Assembly (NCBI GenBank): GCA_945869475.1
Contig: CAMBOV010000006.1
Coordinates: forward strand, 62,001-126,000
Direction: 5' to 3'
DNA length: 64,000 nucleotides
Source: Singulisphaera sp. GP187
Lineage (GTDB): Bacteria > Planctomycetota > Phycisphaerae > Phycisphaerales > SM1A02
Shown here piece after piece: positions 41,392 to 50,737 of this stretch. Position 1 is the stretch's first letter. The number at the start of each line of letters is the position of its first letter. The notes beneath the pieces were generated by a model. That model made no database searches. It was given only the letters and a program-made list of their open reading frames with translations, and was not told the DNA's origin. The position numbers and the translations under genes were made by a program.

Positions 41392-43632
41392 TTACGGACA
41401 AGCGCCCCACGCGCCGAGCATGATTCCAAGATCAGCGCCGTCGGTGTAGAGATCGCCGTTGACATCGGTCTGCGCGCTTCCCCATCCACCGAGCAGCATG
41501 CCGAGATCGGCGCCGTCGACGTAGAGGTCGTGGTCAAGATCAGCAGGGCACTGCGCGACTGCAACGCAACTCATCGCAAGCGTTCCAGAACCGCTCGTTG
41601 CAGCAGGCGCACCGACGCGCACATACCAGGTGCTTCCAGCGGTGACAGCCCACGTTGCCGAACTCGAGGAACTCGCACATCCCGCACCATTGTCAGAGCA
41701 TGCAGAGACCGGAGTCGTCGTGCCGGGGCAGGCGCCTCCTGCGTAGACAGCGATGCGCGTGTCGAAGATCGCGGTGCCACATGTGCTCGCCGTTGCGTTT
41801 CCAGTGCAAGCCGCCGTGTACCTGAACCAGACATCCTTGTTGATCGCAACGCCACCACCTTCATTGCAACTCGTTGGAAGCGCGAGAGCCGTAGTGGTCG
41901 CGTACGTCGTATCGAACGCAAATGAGCCCGCGCCGACTGCTGTTGCCGCTGCGCAGTTGTCATTGACGGGCGCTGGAGTCGTCCAACTCATCGTCATCGA
42001 ATAGTCGTTGCGTGTGTCCGCCGAGAGGTAGACGCGCATCAAGAGTGTCGTCGATGGTCCTGGATTCGTATACGAGAGCGTCTCATTGTTGACGTTGCCA
42101 TTGCGAACGAGCACCGCAGTCGTTCCGCAGGCGCTGTAGAGATCGACGTCAATGTCGCCATTGGAATGCGTGTAGGTGAAGGTTCCTGTGACCGCCTGTC
42201 CGACGGGCACGTTGAGCGAGTACCAGTCTTCGTCGAGTCGCTTGACGATCAGTCCGGTGTAGGTGCCAGCAGCCAGGATCCTGGGAGTCGCGCACGCATC
42301 GTTTGGTTCTTGTGCATCATCGGATCCAGCGGCGAGCGGTGATGCGAATCCGCCACTGGCCACGGCGAGGTCCCACCGACCGTATCCATCGTCGGCGGCT
42401 GGGTTCGCGCAAGAACTCGCGCCACATGTCAGCACGCCGTACATCTTGTGATCGCTATCGCGGTAAATCGCCGATCCCGACGATCCACCCTCTGTGATGC
42501 CGTTGGTCCACGAGAGCGAGTTCCAATTGCCAGCGGGAGATCCGCAGTTGAAAGAGGCGGAGTTCTTGACTCCGAACGAAATCGCTTGCGCCGTTCCGCT
42601 TGGATGGTGAAGTCCAGTCGATGCGGTCGATGTCGCTGGATTCGTGTTGGTCCAGCCAGCCCAATAGACGCCCGTCGGAAGCGTTCCGCGCGCCATGAGC
42701 AGCGTGCAATCGCTCGCGCCGTATCCAACGGTGAGGTCTGCGCCTGAAACAGTCGTTCCCGCCGAGTTGCCGCCTGTGCATGCAGAACGGTAAAAGAAGA
42801 TGAACGCGGCGCTGTTCGCTTCTGCGGTCGTGCTGATGCAGTGGTTCGCCGTCGACACATACGGAGTCTCATCGGCTGCCGTCGTCGCCACCAACTGCGA
42901 TGAGCAGAGGTATCCGCCGCCGCCGCTCGTGAAGGTGAGCTTCGCAGTCGCATTCGATTCGTTCAGCCACGCTGCATAGCACGCTGGATTCAGCGAGCAG
43001 GTGCCTCCGAGTTGGTCGAACATGCCGAAGACATCGCGGTAGCCGAAAGCGTCGGCAGCAGAGTCGAATGGCAATTCCTGCACGGTATGCCCCGTTGGCA
43101 CGAACCACTCGATGCGTGTGCGTGTGGTTGGAGCGCAGATTCCAAAGGCCTCGCCCGTTAAGAAATCGCCTGTGCCTGAGAGCACACCGGTCATCTGTTC
43201 TTCAAGTTCGGGATTCACAATCGCGAGCTCTTGTCCCTCGGCGAGGTTGAGTCCGCTGAGATGCAAGCGCGAACTCATTGCGCCATCCAAGACGATGTCG
43301 AGTCTCCAGAGCCGACCACCCTCGACGTCGATCCACTGACCATCAGAGAGCGAAAAGTCGAGCGCTCGTTCGATGGCGAAGCGATAGGGTTGCGATGGGT
43401 CGGTGTTCGCGTCTTCTTTGAGATAGCCCTGCGTGTCCATCGCTTCGAGCACGATCTGCGATGGAGGGACGAACCATGTTCCGTAGCGCTCACTCAACGT
43501 CGGCTCCGCGGGCTTCTCGTTGGTGGGGGCGGCGAGCGGTCCATGACCATCGGCATCGCCCGCGGCGAGCGCCATTGAGGTGAAGGCTGATGCGAGGATG
43601 CAAGAAATTGGCATAAGTGCCGTGACTCTCAT
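41392..43632 (-). CDS. exported trypsin-like serine protease with dockerin-like tail
   Basis: 746 residues from the ATG at 43632 with a signal (CILASAFTSMALAAG, about 11-25). A chymotrypsin/lysyl-endopeptidase-like domain spans about 195-440: His264 in STANHC, Asp308 in SDCTLL, Ser385 in GGSSGSA; several Cys pairs as in bacterial lysyl endopeptidases. A propeptide-like region (about 45-190) precedes it. Two beta-sandwich domains follow (EDWYSLNVPVGQAVTGTF is pre-peptidase-C-like; DVWFRYTAACTGNATAST), and finally DLDHDLYVDGADLGMLLGGW and DVNGDLYTDGADLGIMLGAW. It is probably secreted and cleaves proteins, perhaps after Lys; specificity not provable here. Confidence 0.87.
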   Translation of the reverse strand: MRVTALMPISCILASAFTSMALAAGDADGHGPLAAPTNEKPAEPTLSERYGTWFVPPSQIVLEAMDTQGYLKEDANTDPSQPYRFAIERALDFSLSDGQWIDVEGGRLWRLDIVLDGAMSSRLHLSGLNLAEGQELAIVNPELEEQMTGVLSGTGDFLTGEAFGICAPTTRTRIEWFVPTGHTVQELPFDSAADAFGYRDVFGMFDQLGGTCSLNPACYAAWLNESNATAKLTFTSGGGGYLCSSQLVATTAADETPYVSTANHCISTTAEANSAAFIFFYRSACTGGNSAGTTVSGADLTVGYGASDCTLLMARGTLPTGVYWAGWTNTNPATSTASTGLHHPSGTAQAISFGVKNSASFNCGSPAGNWNSLSWTNGITEGGSSGSAIYRDSDHKMYGVLTCGASSCANPAADDGYGRWDLAVASGGFASPLAAGSDDAQEPNDACATPRILAAGTYTGLIVKRLDEDWYSLNVPVGQAVTGTFTYTHSNGDIDVDLYSACGTTAVLVRNGNVNNETLSYTNPGPSTTLLMRVYLSADTRNDYSMTMSWTTPAPVNDNCAAATAVGAGSFAFDTTYATTTALALPTSCNEGGGVAINKDVWFRYTAACTGNATASTCGTAIFDTRIAVYAGGACPGTTTPVSACSDNGAGCASSSSSATWAVTAGSTWYVRVGAPAATSGSGTLAMSCVAVAQCPADLDHDLYVDGADLGMLLGGWGSAQTDVNGDLYTDGADLGIMLGAWGACP

Positions 43633-43739
43633 GGATGGCTCCGAGTATGAGTTCGAACGGGGCTCAAATGGGATGCCCTGTAAAGGTAACCCCATTTCCG
43701 CGATGGCTCGAATCAAACTGCCAGGGTTTTCAAAGAAAG

Positions 43740-46700
43740 TCACGGCACTGCGGGCGCGGAAGACTCGAGATAGCGCACAAGTGCTAGAACTTCACTGCGG
43801 GAGCGAGTATTCAGCAGTCCGCCCGGCATGCTTGAGGTTGGGAGCGCCGAGATTGCCGCAATGTCGCTCTTGAGCAGTCGCTGGCGATCTTCGCGAAGCG
43901 GATCGGTGCGAACGTCAATGTTGACTCCATCATCGTGAACGATTCTGCCAACGACGATCGATCCATCGCGCGTCTCGATGAGGCTGTCGCGGTATTGATC
44001 TGAAACCGTTGCAGATGGATCGAGAATCGCCGTCAACAGATCACGCCGCGAGAAGCGACCGCTGACTCCCGTGAGGTCGGGGCCAGTGGTGGCGCCATCC
44101 CCAGCAAATCGATGACAGAGAATGCAGCTCGACTCGCGAAAGAGTTGCGCACCGTGGGCGAGTTCACCCTCGGTGACGTTCCCGTCAGCGGTTGCGTCGA
44201 ACGCACTCTCGAACTCTGCGACTTTCCACTCGTGGATCGCTGAACTCGTCGTGGTGAATGGGGCAGGGGATGGCTGCGCAGTGGTCGCGGCGGCGGCGGT
44301 CGGCGCGCCAGCGAGAGGTTCTCCCACAACGACCTTCGCGTCGCGGCGGATCTGTTCGATGAAGCCGCGCAGGCTGAATCCGCCTGCGCGATCGTTCGCC
44401 GCGGTGAGCCACTGCCAGTAGCGCGCACGCGACGAGTCGGTCCATCCATCTTTGACATTCCGCAGATCTGTCGCGAATCGAAGCGCTTCACTTCGATTGG
44501 GCGCTGTCTCGAGTGCTGCCATCGCCAGGGGCACGGTCGCTGGAAGTGCGAGCGCGCCGCCGAGTTCGAGAGCGATCCACTGCAGTGGATTTCCTTGCGA
44601 ACTCGCGCGCGCTGCGAGTTCGAGCGCACTCGCGCCCGCGCTCACAACACTCGCCTCGCCAGTAAGTGCGCGGTGGCGAGCGACGGCGACCTCAATGATG
44701 CGGATCGCGGCGACGGCATTCTCGTTGTCACTTTTCGTCGAGGGATTGCGCGCGACGAGTTCGCTCAGTGCGCCCGCTGCAACCGTGCACGCAACCTTCG
44801 CGTCGTCGAGCGTGCCGACACGCACAAGCGAGAGTGCCCCCGCGAGTCGAGCGCGCTCCGAGGTGAGTGACGCGACAGCTCGGCGCCACGCTTCGATCGA
44901 TTGATGCTCGAGCGCGATTCGCGCTGCGTACTGCACGAAACGATCGTCGTGGTTGAGTCCTGCAAGAAGTGTTGGAAGGCTTGTCGCGAGTTCTTCAGCG
45001 CTCAGCGAGTGCTGCGACTTCTCAAAGTCACGCCTGAGTGCGCGAAGTGTCGCACGTGCGCTCTCTGCCGCCTGCGCTGTTGCGCCCGAGATCACCTGTG
45101 CGACCTGCGCACTCGCGGAGGCGCTCGCCTTCACGCCATACAGCCCGCTCTGCGTGCCGCGACCTCCGGTCACGAAATACATCGCGCCGTCGGGACCCCA
45201 TGCGAGATCAGCGACGGGCATCGGTCGACCGGTGATGAAGGGTTGCCAGCGCGCCGTGAAGGATGCGCCATCTTCGACGAGCGTCATCGCGAGGATGCGG
45301 CCGTACGTCCAATCCGCCGCAAAGATCATGTCCTTCCACGGCGCAGGGAATGCGCCATCGCATCCAGCAACCATGCCCGTTGGCGACGATGAATCAGTCT
45401 CGCACGCTGCAGGCAAACTGTCTGGATACCACGAGGGCCACGCGCTGCTTCCGCTGCGCCATCCATATTCGCCACCTTGCACGACGTGCACAAAGCGCGG
45501 CGCGCGGTACCACGGAGCGCCAATGTCCCACTCCATGTCGCTGTCGTAGGTGAAGAGTTCGCCGCGAGAATCGAAGCAGTGGTCGTAGGCGTTTCGAAAT
45601 CCTCCCGCGAAGATCGTCGCCTGTTCTGTGACGGGATCGACTCGCACCACAACTCCACCAGGTGAATAGACACCAACGGCGTGTCCTCGTGGATCCCACA
45701 TCCGCGCGTCGACGCGATCCTCGCCATACAGATTGAGTGGCGAGTTCGGTGCGCTGCCTGGAGTTTCGTCCGTTGAATACTTCGCAAGCGTCTGGGGGAC
45801 TCGTGCGTGATTTCCAAGAGCAACATAGAGCGCACCATCACGACCCTTCACGACCGCGTGCGGGCCATGCTCGCCCGCATCGCCGGTGTAAACCATGAGC
45901 GCCGTCGCCTCTTCGTAGGACCCATTTTTGTCGAGGTCTTGCATCCGCCAGAGCGCCGAGCGACCATCCGCGCCGAAACCGTTGGCATAGAGAACATCGC
46001 CGAGAAAACAAAGCCCTTGCGCGCCGCGAATGGGAGCGTCGAGCGGAGCGATCGTCGTCGCCTCACCGCTGAAGAGTGATCCATCGCTAGTGCGCGACAC
46101 TCCAGGAATCGACGCGATTGAGAGTCCGCCATCCTGTGGAGAAATCACCGCACGTCCACTCGAATCGAACGTCAACGCGACCCAACTTCCTTGCGACGAT
46201 TGGGCGCTCGCGAGAAGTTCACAGGTGAATCCTGCGGGAAGTGTGAGACTCGAAACAGGTGGCGCCGATTGAATTGCCCGTACCTCGAGTGCGCAGTAGC
46301 GAACTTCCATCGGCGGTCCTTGGTGAAGTTGAAACGCAAGGAGGCCGTCACGACGAAAGCGGCTCGCGTCTCCGTCGGTGACATCGCTCATCAGCACATC
46401 GTTGATCCAGTGGCGCACACGCGTTCCGTTCGCCTCGATGCGGTACTCGTTCCACTCTCCAGTTCGAATCGAATCTCGCAGCACCGCGTCTGGAGCGAAT
46501 TGTGCGATCACGCGCTTGCCCGCTGGAGTGAACTCAACCTGCTCGCCTCGTGCACTCATCAATTCGCGGCCGAGTCCTTCATAGAGCACGCCTGAGTAAC
46601 TGTTCTGCGCATCAAGATCTGCCTGAAATCCCTGTAAATCGTGCTGTCCATCGACGCGCGAACTTCGGTAATGGATGCCGCTGTTTCCACCCGTCAACTT

Positions 46701-47600
46701 CACGCGGCAGCGCAACTCGAAATCCTGCGGCATGTCGCCATCCCAGACCACATAGGTGCTTGTGGTCAGTGGATGCTCGAGCGTTGACGCACCGACGATG
46801 CAGCCGTCATCAACACTCCAGTAGGAACGGTCGCCACTCCATCCATCGAGCGAGATGGCGTTAAATGGTTCGATCACTCCCGTGGGCCGGTGAAACCACA
46901 TGAGGTGTTGTTGCGGCAGCGACGTATCGGTGCGATCGAAGGTCAGTCCCGCCGCTTCGAGTTCGCGACGAGCTTGGTGTTGCGTCATCTTATGAAGCGG
47001 TTTGATCTCGACCTTTGGATCCTCGCCGCGAAACTCGACGAGCGCGACGCGACCGCCTGGGCGAAGTGCGCGCACGATCGACCGCATCATCTCCCAGGGA
47101 TGATCGAACTCGTGGTACGCATCAACCAACAACACGAGGTCGACGCTCGACGGGGCGAGTTTGACATCGTCGATCGCGCCCAAGACCGCCGTGATGTTCT
47201 CGATACTTTCCTTTTTCGCGCGAGCCGTGAGAAAGTCGACCATCTCTTGCTGCACATCGACCGCGAAGACTCGACCACCCGCGCCGACCGCGCGCGCGAG
47301 CGGAAGCGAGAAGTACCCACTGCCAGCGCCGATGTCTGCAACGACCTCTCCACTTTTCACGCCGAGTGCAGCGATCAGGAGGTCGGTTCGTTCTTCGCCT
47401 CTGCGATGGGGTCGCTCGAGCCAACCAATGGCAGGATGCCCCATGACCTGCGCGATCTCTCGGCCGAAGTACGTCGTGCCGATGCCATCGGCAGTTGCCT
47501 CACACACGCCGTATGCACCAACTGGTGGCGGCTCACAAGGGGCAGTGCACGAAATCGAAAGTGTGACGATGGCGGCGAGCAGGCGCAGGAGAGTTGGCAC
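43740..47600 (-). CDS. exported methyltransferase/DUF1080/propeller/cytochrome c fusion
   Basis: About 1286 residues from a GTG at 47600, which precedes a hydrophobic signal (LLRLLAAIVTLSIS, Cys after it); the earlier part of the frame is Arg-rich and overlaps the divergent SUMF1 gene. Domains: a class I methyltransferase (about 60-230, motif VADIGAGSGYF), DUF1080 concanavalin-like (about 255-440, ISLDGWSGDRSYWSVDDG), a sorbosone-dehydrogenase-like propeller (about 455-860, GPHAVVKGRDGALYVALG; GGFRNAYDHCFDSRG), a helical part, and a cytochrome c (about 1140-1286) with Cys1159-Ile-Leu-Cys-His1163. DUF1080+propeller+cytochrome is known in the PVC group; the N-terminal methyltransferase is odd for an exported protein. 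Electron transfer to a partner oxidase is inferred. Confidence 0.85.
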   Translation of the reverse strand: MPTLLRLLAAIVTLSISCTAPCEPPPVGAYGVCEATADGIGTTYFGREIAQVMGHPAIGWLERPHRRGEERTDLLIAALGVKSGEVVADIGAGSGYFSLPLARAVGAGGRVFAVDVQQEMVDFLTARAKKESIENITAVLGAIDDVKLAPSSVDLVLLVDAYHEFDHPWEMMRSIVRALRPGGRVALVEFRGEDPKVEIKPLHKMTQHQARRELEAAGLTFDRTDTSLPQQHLMWFHRPTGVIEPFNAISLDGWSGDRSYWSVDDGCIVGASTLEHPLTTSTYVVWDGDMPQDFELRCRVKLTGGNSGIHYRSSRVDGQHDLQGFQADLDAQNSYSGVLYEGLGRELMSARGEQVEFTPAGKRVIAQFAPDAVLRDSIRTGEWNEYRIEANGTRVRHWINDVLMSDVTDGDASRFRRDGLLAFQLHQGPPMEVRYCALEVRAIQSAPPVSSLTLPAGFTCELLASAQSSQGSWVALTFDSSGRAVISPQDGGLSIASIPGVSRTSDGSLFSGEATTIAPLDAPIRGAQGLCFLGDVLYANGFGADGRSALWRMQDLDKNGSYEEATALMVYTGDAGEHGPHAVVKGRDGALYVALGNHARVPQTLAKYSTDETPGSAPNSPLNLYGEDRVDARMWDPRGHAVGVYSPGGVVVRVDPVTEQATIFAGGFRNAYDHCFDSRGELFTYDSDMEWDIGAPWYRAPRFVHVVQGGEYGWRSGSSAWPSWYPDSLPAACETDSSSPTGMVAGCDGAFPAPWKDMIFAADWTYGRILAMTLVEDGASFTARWQPFITGRPMPVADLAWGPDGAMYFVTGGRGTQSGLYGVKASASASAQVAQVISGATAQAAESARATLRALRRDFEKSQHSLSAEELATSLPTLLAGLNHDDRFVQYAARIALEHQSIEAWRRAVASLTSERARLAGALSLVRVGTLDDAKVACTVAAGALSELVARNPSTKSDNENAVAAIRIIEVAVARHRALTGEASVVSAGASALELAARASSQGNPLQWIALELGGALALPATVPLAMAALETAPNRSEALRFATDLRNVKDGWTDSSRARYWQWLTAANDRAGGFSLRGFIEQIRRDAKVVVGEPLAGAPTAAAATTAQPSPAPFTTTSSAIHEWKVAEFESAFDATADGNVTEGELAHGAQLFRESSCILCHRFAGDGATTGPDLTGVSGRFSRRDLLTAILDPSATVSDQYRDSLIETRDGSIVVGRIVHDDGVNIDVRTDPLREDRQRLLKSDIAAISALPTSSMPGGLLNTRSRSEVLALVRYLESSAPAVP

Positions 47601-47630
47601 GAGCGAAGAATAGAGAGTTAGGATGCGTAA

Positions 47631-48566
47631 ATGACAACAGGTTCCCTCATCGCTATCAGCGTGGCGTTGGCAATGTGCTTTGGAAGTGCGCCTACTCAGC
47701 AATCGGCGCCACTCGCGTGGGCGGACGTTCTTAATGCTGCGCCGGACGCAGCGGTCATTCCCGATGCAGATGTACGCGCGCGGTTGATCGCAACAGGTCT
47801 TCCGTGGCGGGTGCGCGATCGCACGAGCGGAATTGAAATGTTGCTCATTCCGCCTGGAAAGTTCACGATGGGGGTGAGGCCATCCCAAGGTGAATCAACA
47901 CATGCTGGCGTGCCCGCGGACGAAGTCACGATCGCTGCTCCTTTTTATCTCGGTCGTACTGAGGTCACGCAGGAGCAGTGGGAGAAGGGTGGGCGCGCGA
48001 ATCCGAGCGCGTTTCAGATTGCAGCATTTCAAGCGACCGTTGAAGCGGGGCGCGAGGTCAAGATTAAGGCGATCATGGATGGGGGCTACACGCGAAAAGA
48101 AGCCGATGCCAAGGTCGAGCGAGCGATGTACAAGTTCGCCGCCACCGATCAGTGGCCCGTCGAGTCAGTTTCTTCAGAGGAAATCGAATCGTTTCTTGGT
48201 GCGAACGAGCTGAGACTCCCAACCGAAGCAGAGTGGGAGTATTCCTGTCGCGCAACAACCACGGGAGCGCGCTACGGAGAACTCGACGAGATTGCATGGG
48301 TCGGCGAGAACGCGCATGGAACTCCACACGCAGTCGCGACGAAGCAGGCGAACGCATTTGGGGTGCACGACATGCTCGGAAACGTTTGGGAGTGGTGTTC
48401 AGATCGGTATCAGCCGACCGACCCAACCGCGCCGACCACAGTTGACGCACGAGTTCTTCGCGGTGGAAACTGGCTCAGCCTTCCGGTGACGTGCACATCG
48501 ACCTATCGCATCGGGTCAGACGTCGGTCGGCAGGCTTACGGTGTGCGAGTCGCTCGCAACCCATAA
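47631..48566 (+). CDS. exported SUMF1/FGE-fold protein, copy 1
   Basis: 311 residues with a signal (about 5-22). The SUMF1 fold shows IEMLLIPPGKFTMGV, FYLGRTEVTQEQWE, LRLPTEAEWEYSCRA, VHDMLGNVWEWCSD, VLRGGNWLS and the end YGVRVARNP. Between the NPSAF and WPVE elements lies a charged helical insert with GGYTRKEADAKVE that typical family members lack. The catalytic Cys pair of formylglycine-generating enzymes is incomplete (only one Cys, in PVTCTS), so sulfatase activation is unlikely and a binding or scaffold role is more probable. Starts 30 bases from the divergent fusion gene; copies 2 and 3 follow. Confidence 0.88.
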   Translation: MTTGSLIAISVALAMCFGSAPTQQSAPLAWADVLNAAPDAAVIPDADVRARLIATGLPWRVRDRTSGIEMLLIPPGKFTMGVRPSQGESTHAGVPADEVTIAAPFYLGRTEVTQEQWEKGGRANPSAFQIAAFQATVEAGREVKIKAIMDGGYTRKEADAKVERAMYKFAATDQWPVESVSSEEIESFLGANELRLPTEAEWEYSCRATTTGARYGELDEIAWVGENAHGTPHAVATKQANAFGVHDMLGNVWEWCSDRYQPTDPTAPTTVDARVLRGGNWLSLPVTCTSTYRIGSDVGRQAYGVRVARNP

Positions 48567-48593
48567 AGAGCGATTTGCGTTAGGATTCTGGGC

Positions 48594-49598
48594 ATGCAGA
48601 CATGGGGTACCACAATCGTTGCCACAACTTTGGTCGTGGCGGGTCTGAGCGGTTGCTCAATCACGGTGCAGGGCGGTCTCGGCAAGGGAAGCTCAAATGC
48701 TTCCATGGCCTGGGCTCAAGTTCTTGAGCGCTCGCCAAATCCTGCGGTCGTCACCGACGCCGCGTTGCTCGCGCGCATCAAGGCGACGGGTCTTCCGTGG
48801 CGGGTGCGAGACATCGGCAGCGGCATCGAGATGTTGCTTGTGCCCCCTAGCGAATTCGTGATGGGCATGAGCCCGGGCGACATGAGTGCGATGGAAGACG
48901 AACGCCCATCGCACGAAGTCACATTGACCAAGGCTTTCTATCTCGGTCGCACCGAAGTCACGCAAGCACAGTGGACGCAGGTGATGGGTTTCAATCAGAG
49001 CTACTTTCAAGAGGTTCGCTTTCAAGTCGCCAGCGCTCCGGTGTATGACGCGAAGGTCACAGCACTCATCGACGCTGGATACACGCGAGCCGAGGCCGAA
49101 TCGAAGGCGGGAACAGACACGCTCATCGAAGTGGACTCAGGGCAGTGGCCCGTTGAAACTCTCACGCCTGAGGAGATGCGTCCATACTTGCTCAAGACGC
49201 AACTTCGACTCCCCACCGAAGCAGAGTGGGAATACGCCGCGCGCGCAGGAGTTCGCGAAGCTCGATACGGCGACTTGGATGCGATCGGGTGGTACTCAGG
49301 AAACTCTCAGGGACGCACCCACGCCGTGGGCGCGAAGCAAGCCAACGCACTCGGGTTCTACGACATGATCGGCAACGTCTGGGAGTGGGTGGGCGATTGG
49401 TATTCGTCCGACTACTACACAGCGTGCGAAAATGGCGCGACCGATCCGACAGGTCCAGCGTCGAGCGACTTCGGCGTTGCGCGGGGAGGATCATGGGATC
49501 ACGTCGCCAAGAACTGCCGCGTTTCGTTTCGCCAGAATCACTACATGCCCGACCCGCGCATCACAGACTTCGGTTTCCGCGTCGCGCGCAATCCATAA
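48594..49598 (+). CDS. exported SUMF1/FGE-fold lipoprotein, copy 2
   Basis: 334 residues, 27 bases after copy 1. The signal TTLVVAGLSGC is a good lipobox with Cys at residue 21, so this copy is probably a lipoprotein. The SUMF1 body shows IEMLLVPPSEFVMGM, FYLGRTEVTQAQWT, FYDMIGNVWEWVGDWY and ARGGSWDHVAKNCRVSFR, ending TDFGFRVARNP. The insert with DAGYTRAEAESKAG matches copies 1 and 3. The first catalytic FGE Cys is replaced (SWDHVAKNC holds only the second). The gene order and spacing support one transcript of three paralogues. Confidence 0.9.
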   Translation: MQTWGTTIVATTLVVAGLSGCSITVQGGLGKGSSNASMAWAQVLERSPNPAVVTDAALLARIKATGLPWRVRDIGSGIEMLLVPPSEFVMGMSPGDMSAMEDERPSHEVTLTKAFYLGRTEVTQAQWTQVMGFNQSYFQEVRFQVASAPVYDAKVTALIDAGYTRAEAESKAGTDTLIEVDSGQWPVETLTPEEMRPYLLKTQLRLPTEAEWEYAARAGVREARYGDLDAIGWYSGNSQGRTHAVGAKQANALGFYDMIGNVWEWVGDWYSSDYYTACENGATDPTGPASSDFGVARGGSWDHVAKNCRVSFRQNHYMPDPRITDFGFRVARNP

Positions 49599-49621
49599 CA
49601 CTTCTAGAGAGGATCCCACCC

Positions 49622-50737
49622 ATGAGTATTCACAACAGCGCCGTGCGCGTTCAACACTTTCTCTCACTTGGTTCAGCAGCAGCGTGCGTCGTGCTCTCAC
49701 TCGGCGCGCAGCAGACTCCGCCGGCAGCACTGCCAACTGCGGCACCGGCCGCAGCTGCAGCGCAAGCTCAGCCCACCACGATTCCACCGCGCATTCAGCC
49801 TGGCACACCCGATGGCAATCGCATGGCCACCGCAGCATCGGCGATGGGATGGGCCGAGATTCTCGACCAAGCTCCAGATCCAAATGTTGTCACCGACGCG
49901 ACGCTTCGAACAGCGATTGCGGGCAGCGGACTTCCGTGGCGCGTGCGCGACAAACTGACGGGCATTGAGATGCTCTTGGTTCCAGCGGGCGAGTTCGTGA
50001 TGGGCATGAGCGTCGACGACGCGCTTGCGAACAGCGACGAGCGACCCGCACATGAAGTGATTCTGACGAAGGCGTTTTATCTCGGCCGCACCGAGGTGAC
50101 ACAAGCGCAGTGGACTCGCCAGATGGGAACGAATCAGAGTTACTTTCAAGACATCAACTTTGAAGTGATTCCAGAAGAGGACCGCACCGCCAAGGTCGCT
50201 GAGTTGATGGAAGCTGGTTACACGCGCAAGCAGGCCGAAGAAAAACTCGGAGTCGAGATCATGGCGACTGTCGTGACGGCGGACTGGCCAGTCGAAACGC
50301 TGACGTTCGAAGAGATTCAACCCTTCCTTGCCAAGACGAAAATGCGTCTGCCATCCGAAGCTGAATGGGAATATGCATGTCGCGCAGGATCGCGCGCGCC
50401 GACCTACGGACCATTGAATGACATCGCGTGGAACTCTGACAACGCTGAGAGTCGCACGCATGCGGTCGGCGAGAAAGCAGCCAATCCGCTGGGATTTAGC
50501 GACATGATCGGCAACGTCTGGGAGTGGGTCACCGATTGGTACAGCGCCGACTACTACCGGTCGTGCGAAAACGGCGTGACGAATCCAACTGGACCAGCGC
50601 AGAATGCATTCCGAGTTCTTCGCGGTGGATCATGGGATTACGGCGCGCAGAATTGCCGCGCATCTTTTCGCATGAACCACTGCACGGGCGATCCACGAAT
50701 CACTGACTTTGGATTCCGCGTCGCGCGGACGCCCTGA
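49622..50737 (+). CDS. exported SUMF1/FGE-fold protein, copy 3
   Basis: 371 residues from the ATG at 49622 (24 bases after copy 2; the frame is open further upstream but inside copy 2). A signal at about 10-29 is followed by an Ala/Pro-rich linker (about 30-70) that copies 1 and 2 lack. Body: IEMLLVPAGEFVMGM, FYLGRTEVTQAQWTRQMGTN, MRLPSEAEWEYACRAG, FSDMIGNVWEWVTDWY, LRGGSWDYGAQNCRASFR. The shared insert reads EAGYTRKQAEEKLG. As in copy 2, only the second FGE-type Cys is present. It is closest to copy 2, so the triplet probably arose by tandem duplication. Confidence 0.9.
   Translation: MSIHNSAVRVQHFLSLGSAAACVVLSLGAQQTPPAALPTAAPAAAAAQAQPTTIPPRIQPGTPDGNRMATAASAMGWAEILDQAPDPNVVTDATLRTAIAGSGLPWRVRDKLTGIEMLLVPAGEFVMGMSVDDALANSDERPAHEVILTKAFYLGRTEVTQAQWTRQMGTNQSYFQDINFEVIPEEDRTAKVAELMEAGYTRKQAEEKLGVEIMATVVTADWPVETLTFEEIQPFLAKTKMRLPSEAEWEYACRAGSRAPTYGPLNDIAWNSDNAESRTHAVGEKAANPLGFSDMIGNVWEWVTDWYSADYYRSCENGVTNPTGPAQNAFRVLRGGSWDYGAQNCRASFRMNHCTGDPRITDFGFRVARTP

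Follow-up and report, generated by a model that had tools for sequence, protein, structure and literature searches.

How can one protein chain hold both a methyltransferase domain of the type that uses S-adenosylmethionine (SAM), which is regarded as a cytoplasmic cofactor, and a heme site of the kind that is matured outside the cytoplasm? The question is posed by a gene on the minus strand of a 64,000-nucleotide stretch of DNA from Singulisphaera sp. GP187, a planctomycete relative of freshwater origin (contig CAMBOV010000006.1, positions 62,001 to 126,000), hereafter called the window. A preliminary description, made from the sequence alone, had placed the motifs VADIGAGSGYF (residues 87-97) and CILCH (residues 1159-1163, with Cys1159) behind a signal-like segment. 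These positions are correct, the methyltransferase domain and the heme site do lie in one chain that is predicted to be exported, and the conflict with the presumed location of SAM is genuine. The paradox is real, but it belongs to a whole family of methyltransferases and not to this gene alone. What is new here is a class I methyltransferase subfamily in an unexpected place, together with one new multi-domain architecture. We give about an even chance to the explanation that two neighboring genes for exported proteins fused in this lineage and that the methyltransferase takes part in carbohydrate breakdown outside the cytoplasm.

The methyltransferase domain and its family

The frame is open from 43740 to 47888 on the minus strand and, read from the GTG at 47600, encodes 1286 amino acids with no internal stop (Table 1). 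The chain has motif I (D/E-x-G-x-G-x-G) and an acidic residue at the end of strand 2, by which a class I methyltransferase is recognized. In a Pfam scan the fused protein scores 61.3 bits with Methyltransf_25 (cut-off 27) and 24.9 bits with Cytochrom_C (cut-off 21.3). The structure model of the domain is confident and has a class I (Rossmann-like) fold, for which the nearest solved structure is 3dh0.

In the class I fold, SAM is bound by motif I together with the acidic residue of strand β2, which holds its ribose. These positions are essentially invariant in the homologues. Residues D89, G91, G93 and G95 and the acidic residue 115 are retained in all rows of an 81-row alignment, from which six duplicate rows were left out. 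In a wider set (60 rows, 59 of them distinct) they are retained in 59, 59, 58, 59 and 59 rows, respectively, the exception being one replacement of G by A. Because the residues of the SAM pocket are so well kept, the domain is, as far as sequence can tell, intact and not decayed, and the suggestion of the preliminary description that it might be a non-catalytic binding domain is not favored. R66, H163 and E213 are invariant in both alignments (81/81 and 59/59), which suggests a conserved reaction.

A scan of genome contigs found 278 relatives of the domain. Record titles assign the best 80 of these to Planctomycetota, Verrucomicrobiota, Armatimonadota, Abditibacteriaceae, Bacteroidota (Rhodocytophaga, Larkinella, Spirosoma), Cyanobacteria (Pseudanabaena, Stenomitos, Rhizonema and others) and gammaproteobacterial bins, with identities across phyla of about 50% or more. 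Of the 199 genomes of the sampled phylum, 45 give a match at the E 1e-40 level. The Singulisphaera genome itself has one copy, its four other matches being weaker (57 bits or less). Small single-domain members occur in cultured bacteria (Spirosoma, Larkinella, a Delftia plasmid). The family is also present on four plasmid records, two of which were translated and open with clear signal peptides; among these plasmids are the IncP plasmids pBHB and pAKD18 and the Delftia plasmid, and among the loci L199 and L200. A literature search found no description of this apparently exported family.

The signal-like segment of the fused protein, VPTLLRLLAAIVTLSISC, has a positively charged start and a hydrophobic core and ends in the lipobox-like SISC, which fits the rule used here although the lipobox is not canonical. 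Under the same rule a signal peptide stands beside the methyltransferase domain in 65 of 80 loci of the cross-phylum set, and in another 8 it lies earlier in that frame (73/80 in total). These loci are the best 80 of 278; they were selected for their similarity to a query with the signal peptide in it, and several are near-copies (for example L026/L035, L071/L079 and L072/L075/L083). The seven negative loci are L026, L034, L035, L047, L051, L058 and L078. The Planctomycetota set (59 loci, L106-L164) was gathered mostly by an alignment starting after the hydrophobic core, and for the rest by a whole-protein search. It holds one place twice (L109, L128), shares L153 (contig of L037) and L159 (contig of L043) with the first set, and includes distant relatives such as L160-L164. 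In this set the signal peptide lies beside the domain in 48/59 loci and further upstream in frame in 7/59; the other four are L111, L124, L139 and L158, of which L158 is truncated where its contig stops. The control, UbiE of Planctomycetota, has a signal peptide in 1 of 30 proteins. In seven Phycisphaerales relatives (L018, L029, L033, L040, L055, L062 and L081) the methyltransferase has an N-terminal extension that is about 300 residues long and starts with a separate signal peptide. In the three that were scanned, the marine members L018, L029 and L033, Pfam matched nothing but the methyltransferase.

Fused and two-gene states in relatives

The whole protein was searched against 61 genomes (its own and 60 relatives), 44 of which gave some match; the genus set consists of 19 genomes (G000-G018). 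The fused gene is found in two of the 19, the Singulisphaera genome (G000) and G001, whose homologue L086 (SIAP01000025.1) is 71% identical over residues 8-1280. Six other genomes (G002, G009, G011, G012, G015, G016) have a methyltransferase gene followed by an adjacent DUF1080-propeller-cytochrome gene, the latter cut by a contig end in G002, G009 and G011. The two-gene arrangement that the preliminary description had proposed to look for therefore exists. At the base level, the methyltransferase stop and the next start overlap by 4 nt in all six loci (L005, L006, L007, L010, L011, L013), as ATGA in five and GTGA in one. The second protein of these congeners starts with its own signal-like segment, and the separate methyltransferase also has a signal peptide of its own, so the two-gene state does not dissolve the SAM paradox. 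In both fused forms the second signal segment is gone and the frame continues cleanly across the junction. Judged from these comparisons, the fusion is most simply read as a local, lineage-specific event that joined two adjacent, overlapping genes of predicted exported products.

The ratios of nonsynonymous to synonymous divergence (dN/dS) between the two fused genes are 0.238/1.389 for the methyltransferase, 0.092/2.38 for DUF1080, 0.185/1.557 for the propeller and 0.213/1.376 for the cytochrome, the synonymous values being near saturation. These ratios, well below 1, indicate that the domains of the fused gene, the predicted SAM pocket and the cytochrome included, are under purifying selection. 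In bootstrap trees of the methyltransferase the fused rows cluster together in 94% of cases; for both DUF1080 trees the figure is 0%. Neither the date of the fusion nor a single origin can be read from such weak trees. The latter half of L085 clusters with L087 (from G006). L087 has a signal peptide joined straight to DUF1080 and lacks a methyltransferase, so the methyltransferase may have been lost after fusion. G001 has a second DUF1080-propeller-cytochrome gene (G001:C35:3337-6354), which shares 54% identity with the latter half of the fused gene and has no methyltransferase in the match.

The putative carbohydrate half and other fusion partners

In PMC9007349, DUF1080 (PF06439) proteins are described as periplasmic 3-ketoglycoside hydrolases whose partner is a sugar dehydrogenase bound to the membrane. 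The propeller model of the fused protein has the fold of the glucose dehydrogenases (GSDH) that depend on pyrroloquinoline quinone (PQQ) and matches 1qbi (Table 1); other propeller types reach Z scores of 25.5 or less. The genome encodes the cytochrome maturation family PF01578 (108.1 bits).

The preliminary description had called the combination unusual. This holds for the exact architecture and not for its principle, since fusion of the methyltransferase family to exported carbohydrate-handling domains recurs. Among ten long frames picked by hand from 45 Planctomycetota hits, a choice that gives no rate, L117 has an exported sulfatase in one frame with the methyltransferase (Sulfatase 187.8 bits), L109 a PQQ_2 propeller (69 bits) and L129 a different PF06439 domain (129.9 bits), with L115 alike by eye. 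In L124 and L125 the partners are xylose-isomerase-like barrels (AP_endonuc_2 65.5 and 54.5 bits). A ThuA-like N-terminal domain was considered and rejected: L118 scores 26.1 bits against a cut-off of 33.4, and L116 and L122 have no match.

Comparison with known proteins

The fused protein and 3dh0, titled a SAM-dependent methyltransferase, from Aquifex aeolicus, have an F/YHE motif in common. The identity does not exceed 24%, and the match, which sets in at model residue 29, lacks the start of the family-specific N-terminal block. The possible exported protein 3ocj of Bordetella parapertussis, exported by its PDB title alone, likewise has a class I methyltransferase fold (TMq 0.59, 21% identity). 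The fused protein passes the cut-off of UbiE/COQ5 (PF01209; 40.8 against 20.1 bits). Nevertheless, a UbiE-type quinone enzyme was rejected, because the scores with the UbiE/MenG models are far under their cut-offs (35.6 against 158.35 for TIGR01934, 41.7 against 378 for NF001240) and because, unlike the exported family, 29 of the 30 Planctomycetota UbiE proteins lack a signal peptide.

Among the PVC-type heme-binding proteins (TIGR02603/TIGR02604), the C-terminal CxxCH domain of the fused protein is above the TIGR02603 cut-off and its propeller is below that of TIGR02604; the methyltransferase and DUF1080 domains precede them. PF06439 is common to the fused protein and the DUF1080 3-ketoglycoside hydrolases BT2157 and CCNA_01705, which in PMC9007349 are single-domain proteins, whereas the fused protein adds the methyltransferase, propeller and cytochrome. 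The same paper proposes a periplasmic place for CCNA_01705 and notes a sugar dehydrogenase encoded nearby.

Possible function and alternative explanations

The fused chain would cross the membrane by the Sec route, be anchored as a lipoprotein, receive its heme outside and act in the periplasm. There the target of the PF06439 domain and the glucose-dehydrogenase-like propeller would be a glycoside, which would first be oxidized and then, as the keto-glycoside, cleaved, with electrons passing to the cytochrome. Such an oxidize-and-cleave machine is a reasonable proposal but unproved. The methyltransferase might methylate a substrate or product of this same extracytoplasmic step, or otherwise use SAM on it; what points to a role in the step is solely the repeated fusion. 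Because the domain belongs to a conserved, apparently exported family, these bacteria would be expected to have SAM, or a donor resembling it, within reach outside the cytoplasm. A broader proposal is more tentative and is held with rather less confidence: that a widespread methyltransferase family serves glycan or glycoside breakdown outside the cytoplasm, that SAM or another donor fitting the pocket reaches the periplasm by an undescribed route, and that in this gene such an enzyme has become permanently joined to a keto-glycoside hydrolase, a sugar-dehydrogenase-like propeller and a cytochrome.

Several observations weigh against a working extracytoplasmic methyltransferase in sugar oxidation. 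A methyl donor outside the cytoplasm is not known, and all the export calls rest on one in-house signal-peptide rule. The propeller scores 16.5 bits with PF07995 (GSDH), under the cut-off of 25, the genome has no pqqE above cut-off, and no TENA/PqqC-type gene (PF03070) was found in 21 genomes, this one included; a working quinoprotein step is thus doubtful, though PQQ could be taken up from outside. The pairing of the two genes is loose: G006 and G007, of the 19 genus genomes, have a DUF1080 gene and no methyltransferase match, and in L008 and L009 the methyltransferase is kept while the DUF1080 gene is lost after the same overlap. Outside the genus no conserved neighborhood was found, six-frame clustering of the 81 loci giving shadow frames and clade-specific synteny only. 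On pAKD18 the methyltransferase follows an ATP-binding cassette (ABC) solute uptake operon and a metallophosphoesterase, not sugar oxidation genes.

Some class I folds work without methyl transfer. The pocket might accordingly be kept for another adenosine compound bound outside the cell, or the domain might perform acid-base chemistry on sugars. The extracytoplasmic location and the fusion to sugar-acting domains would suit such a role, as would the additional invariant residues R47, E48, H55, H163, E164, H203 and E213, and SpnF, titled a [4+2]-cyclase, is among the structural hits. However, the recognized SAM contacts, the acidic β2 residue among them, are retained with no drift across phyla, and a non-methyltransferase role appears unlikely, if still worth serious consideration. 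An exported family with an untouched SAM pocket and fusions to carbohydrate domains means that either SAM is available outside the cytoplasm or the fold does other chemistry there.

The remaining alternatives would remove the paradox by separating the methyltransferase from the exported part, as the preliminary description had considered. A cytoplasmic methyltransferase, with the remainder alone exported, could arise from the in-frame GTG at residue 32, the sole start between the signal peptide and the conserved block. This codon is absent from L086 and from all six split loci. In 50 of the 81 rows there is no start codon in the 16 residues ahead of the block, and the other 31 mostly have just an ATG one residue ahead of it. 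There being no conserved internal start, this origin was rejected. Export is needed for the cytochrome, from which the methyltransferase is inseparable in the fused chain, and the single-gene relatives have signal peptides of their own, which leaves a cytosolic start unsupported and very improbable. A frameshift, an assembly error or a meaningless read-through joining two genes might be suspected from the two-gene state of the six congeners. A second species nonetheless has the same fusion, both fused forms lack the second signal peptide, the frame has changed cleanly at the junction and dN/dS is low on both sides of it. An artifact is refuted for practical purposes, and the fusion of two exported proteins remains the preferred explanation.

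Layout of the gene and its surroundings

Table 1. Features of the fused gene in window coordinates (pLDDT, predicted local distance difference test; rmsd, root-mean-square deviation).
Feature	Position	Strand	Basis
Whole fused gene	43740..47600	-	GTG start, 1286 aa + stop (stop 43740-43742); fused homologue L086; 5' region conserved with L086, L087
Signal peptide, residues 1-21, lipobox-like TLSIS-C18	47538..47600	-	Rule-based call
Family-specific N-terminal block DGIG..GREIAQVMGH..WLER..R..EE, residues 38-70	47391..47489	-	R47, E48, M53, H55, W60, R63, R66, E70 in 81/81 rows
Class I methyltransferase core, residues 71-238	46887..47390	-	Methyltransf_25 61.3 bits; model pLDDT 93.5; 3dh0 Z 26.4, rmsd 1.9 over 190 residues
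SAM motif I VADIGAGSGYF, residues 87-97	47310..47342	-	Located in translation; row conservation
Fusion junction, residues 236-245	46866..46895	-	Methyltransferase stop and next start overlap by 4 nt here in split congeners
PF06439 (DUF1080, 3-keto-disaccharide hydrolase) domain, residues 243-435	46296..46874	-	95.4 bits, cut-off 26.8
Beta-propeller, residues 440-835, PQQ-dependent glucose dehydrogenase fold	45096..46283	-	Model pLDDT 84.2; 1qbi Z 31.1, rmsd 3.0 over 305; TIGR02604 69.9 bits, below cut-off 122.2
Linking region, residues 836-1130, probably helical repeat	44211..45095	-	Sequence reading; no Pfam/NCBIfam match above threshold
PVC-type cytochrome c domain, residues 1145-1280	43761..44168	-	TIGR02603 83.7 bits, cut-off 68.15
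Heme motif CILCH, residues 1159-1163	44112..44126	-	Located in translation

The stretch immediately 5' of the start (47600-47630), ATCCTAACTCTCTATTCT, is largely common to L086 and L087. No ribosome-binding site is visible in it ahead of the GTG, so the message may be leaderless. The downstream gene (41392-43743, minus strand) abuts the fused gene at its stop; the product is a large, secreted-looking protein that has a single weak Pfam match and ends in dockerin-like repeats. On the other side, divergent from the fused gene, three consecutive FGE-sulfatase (SUMF1-like) proteins with signal-like starts are encoded at 47631-50737 on the plus strand, the first beginning only 30 bp from the fused gene.

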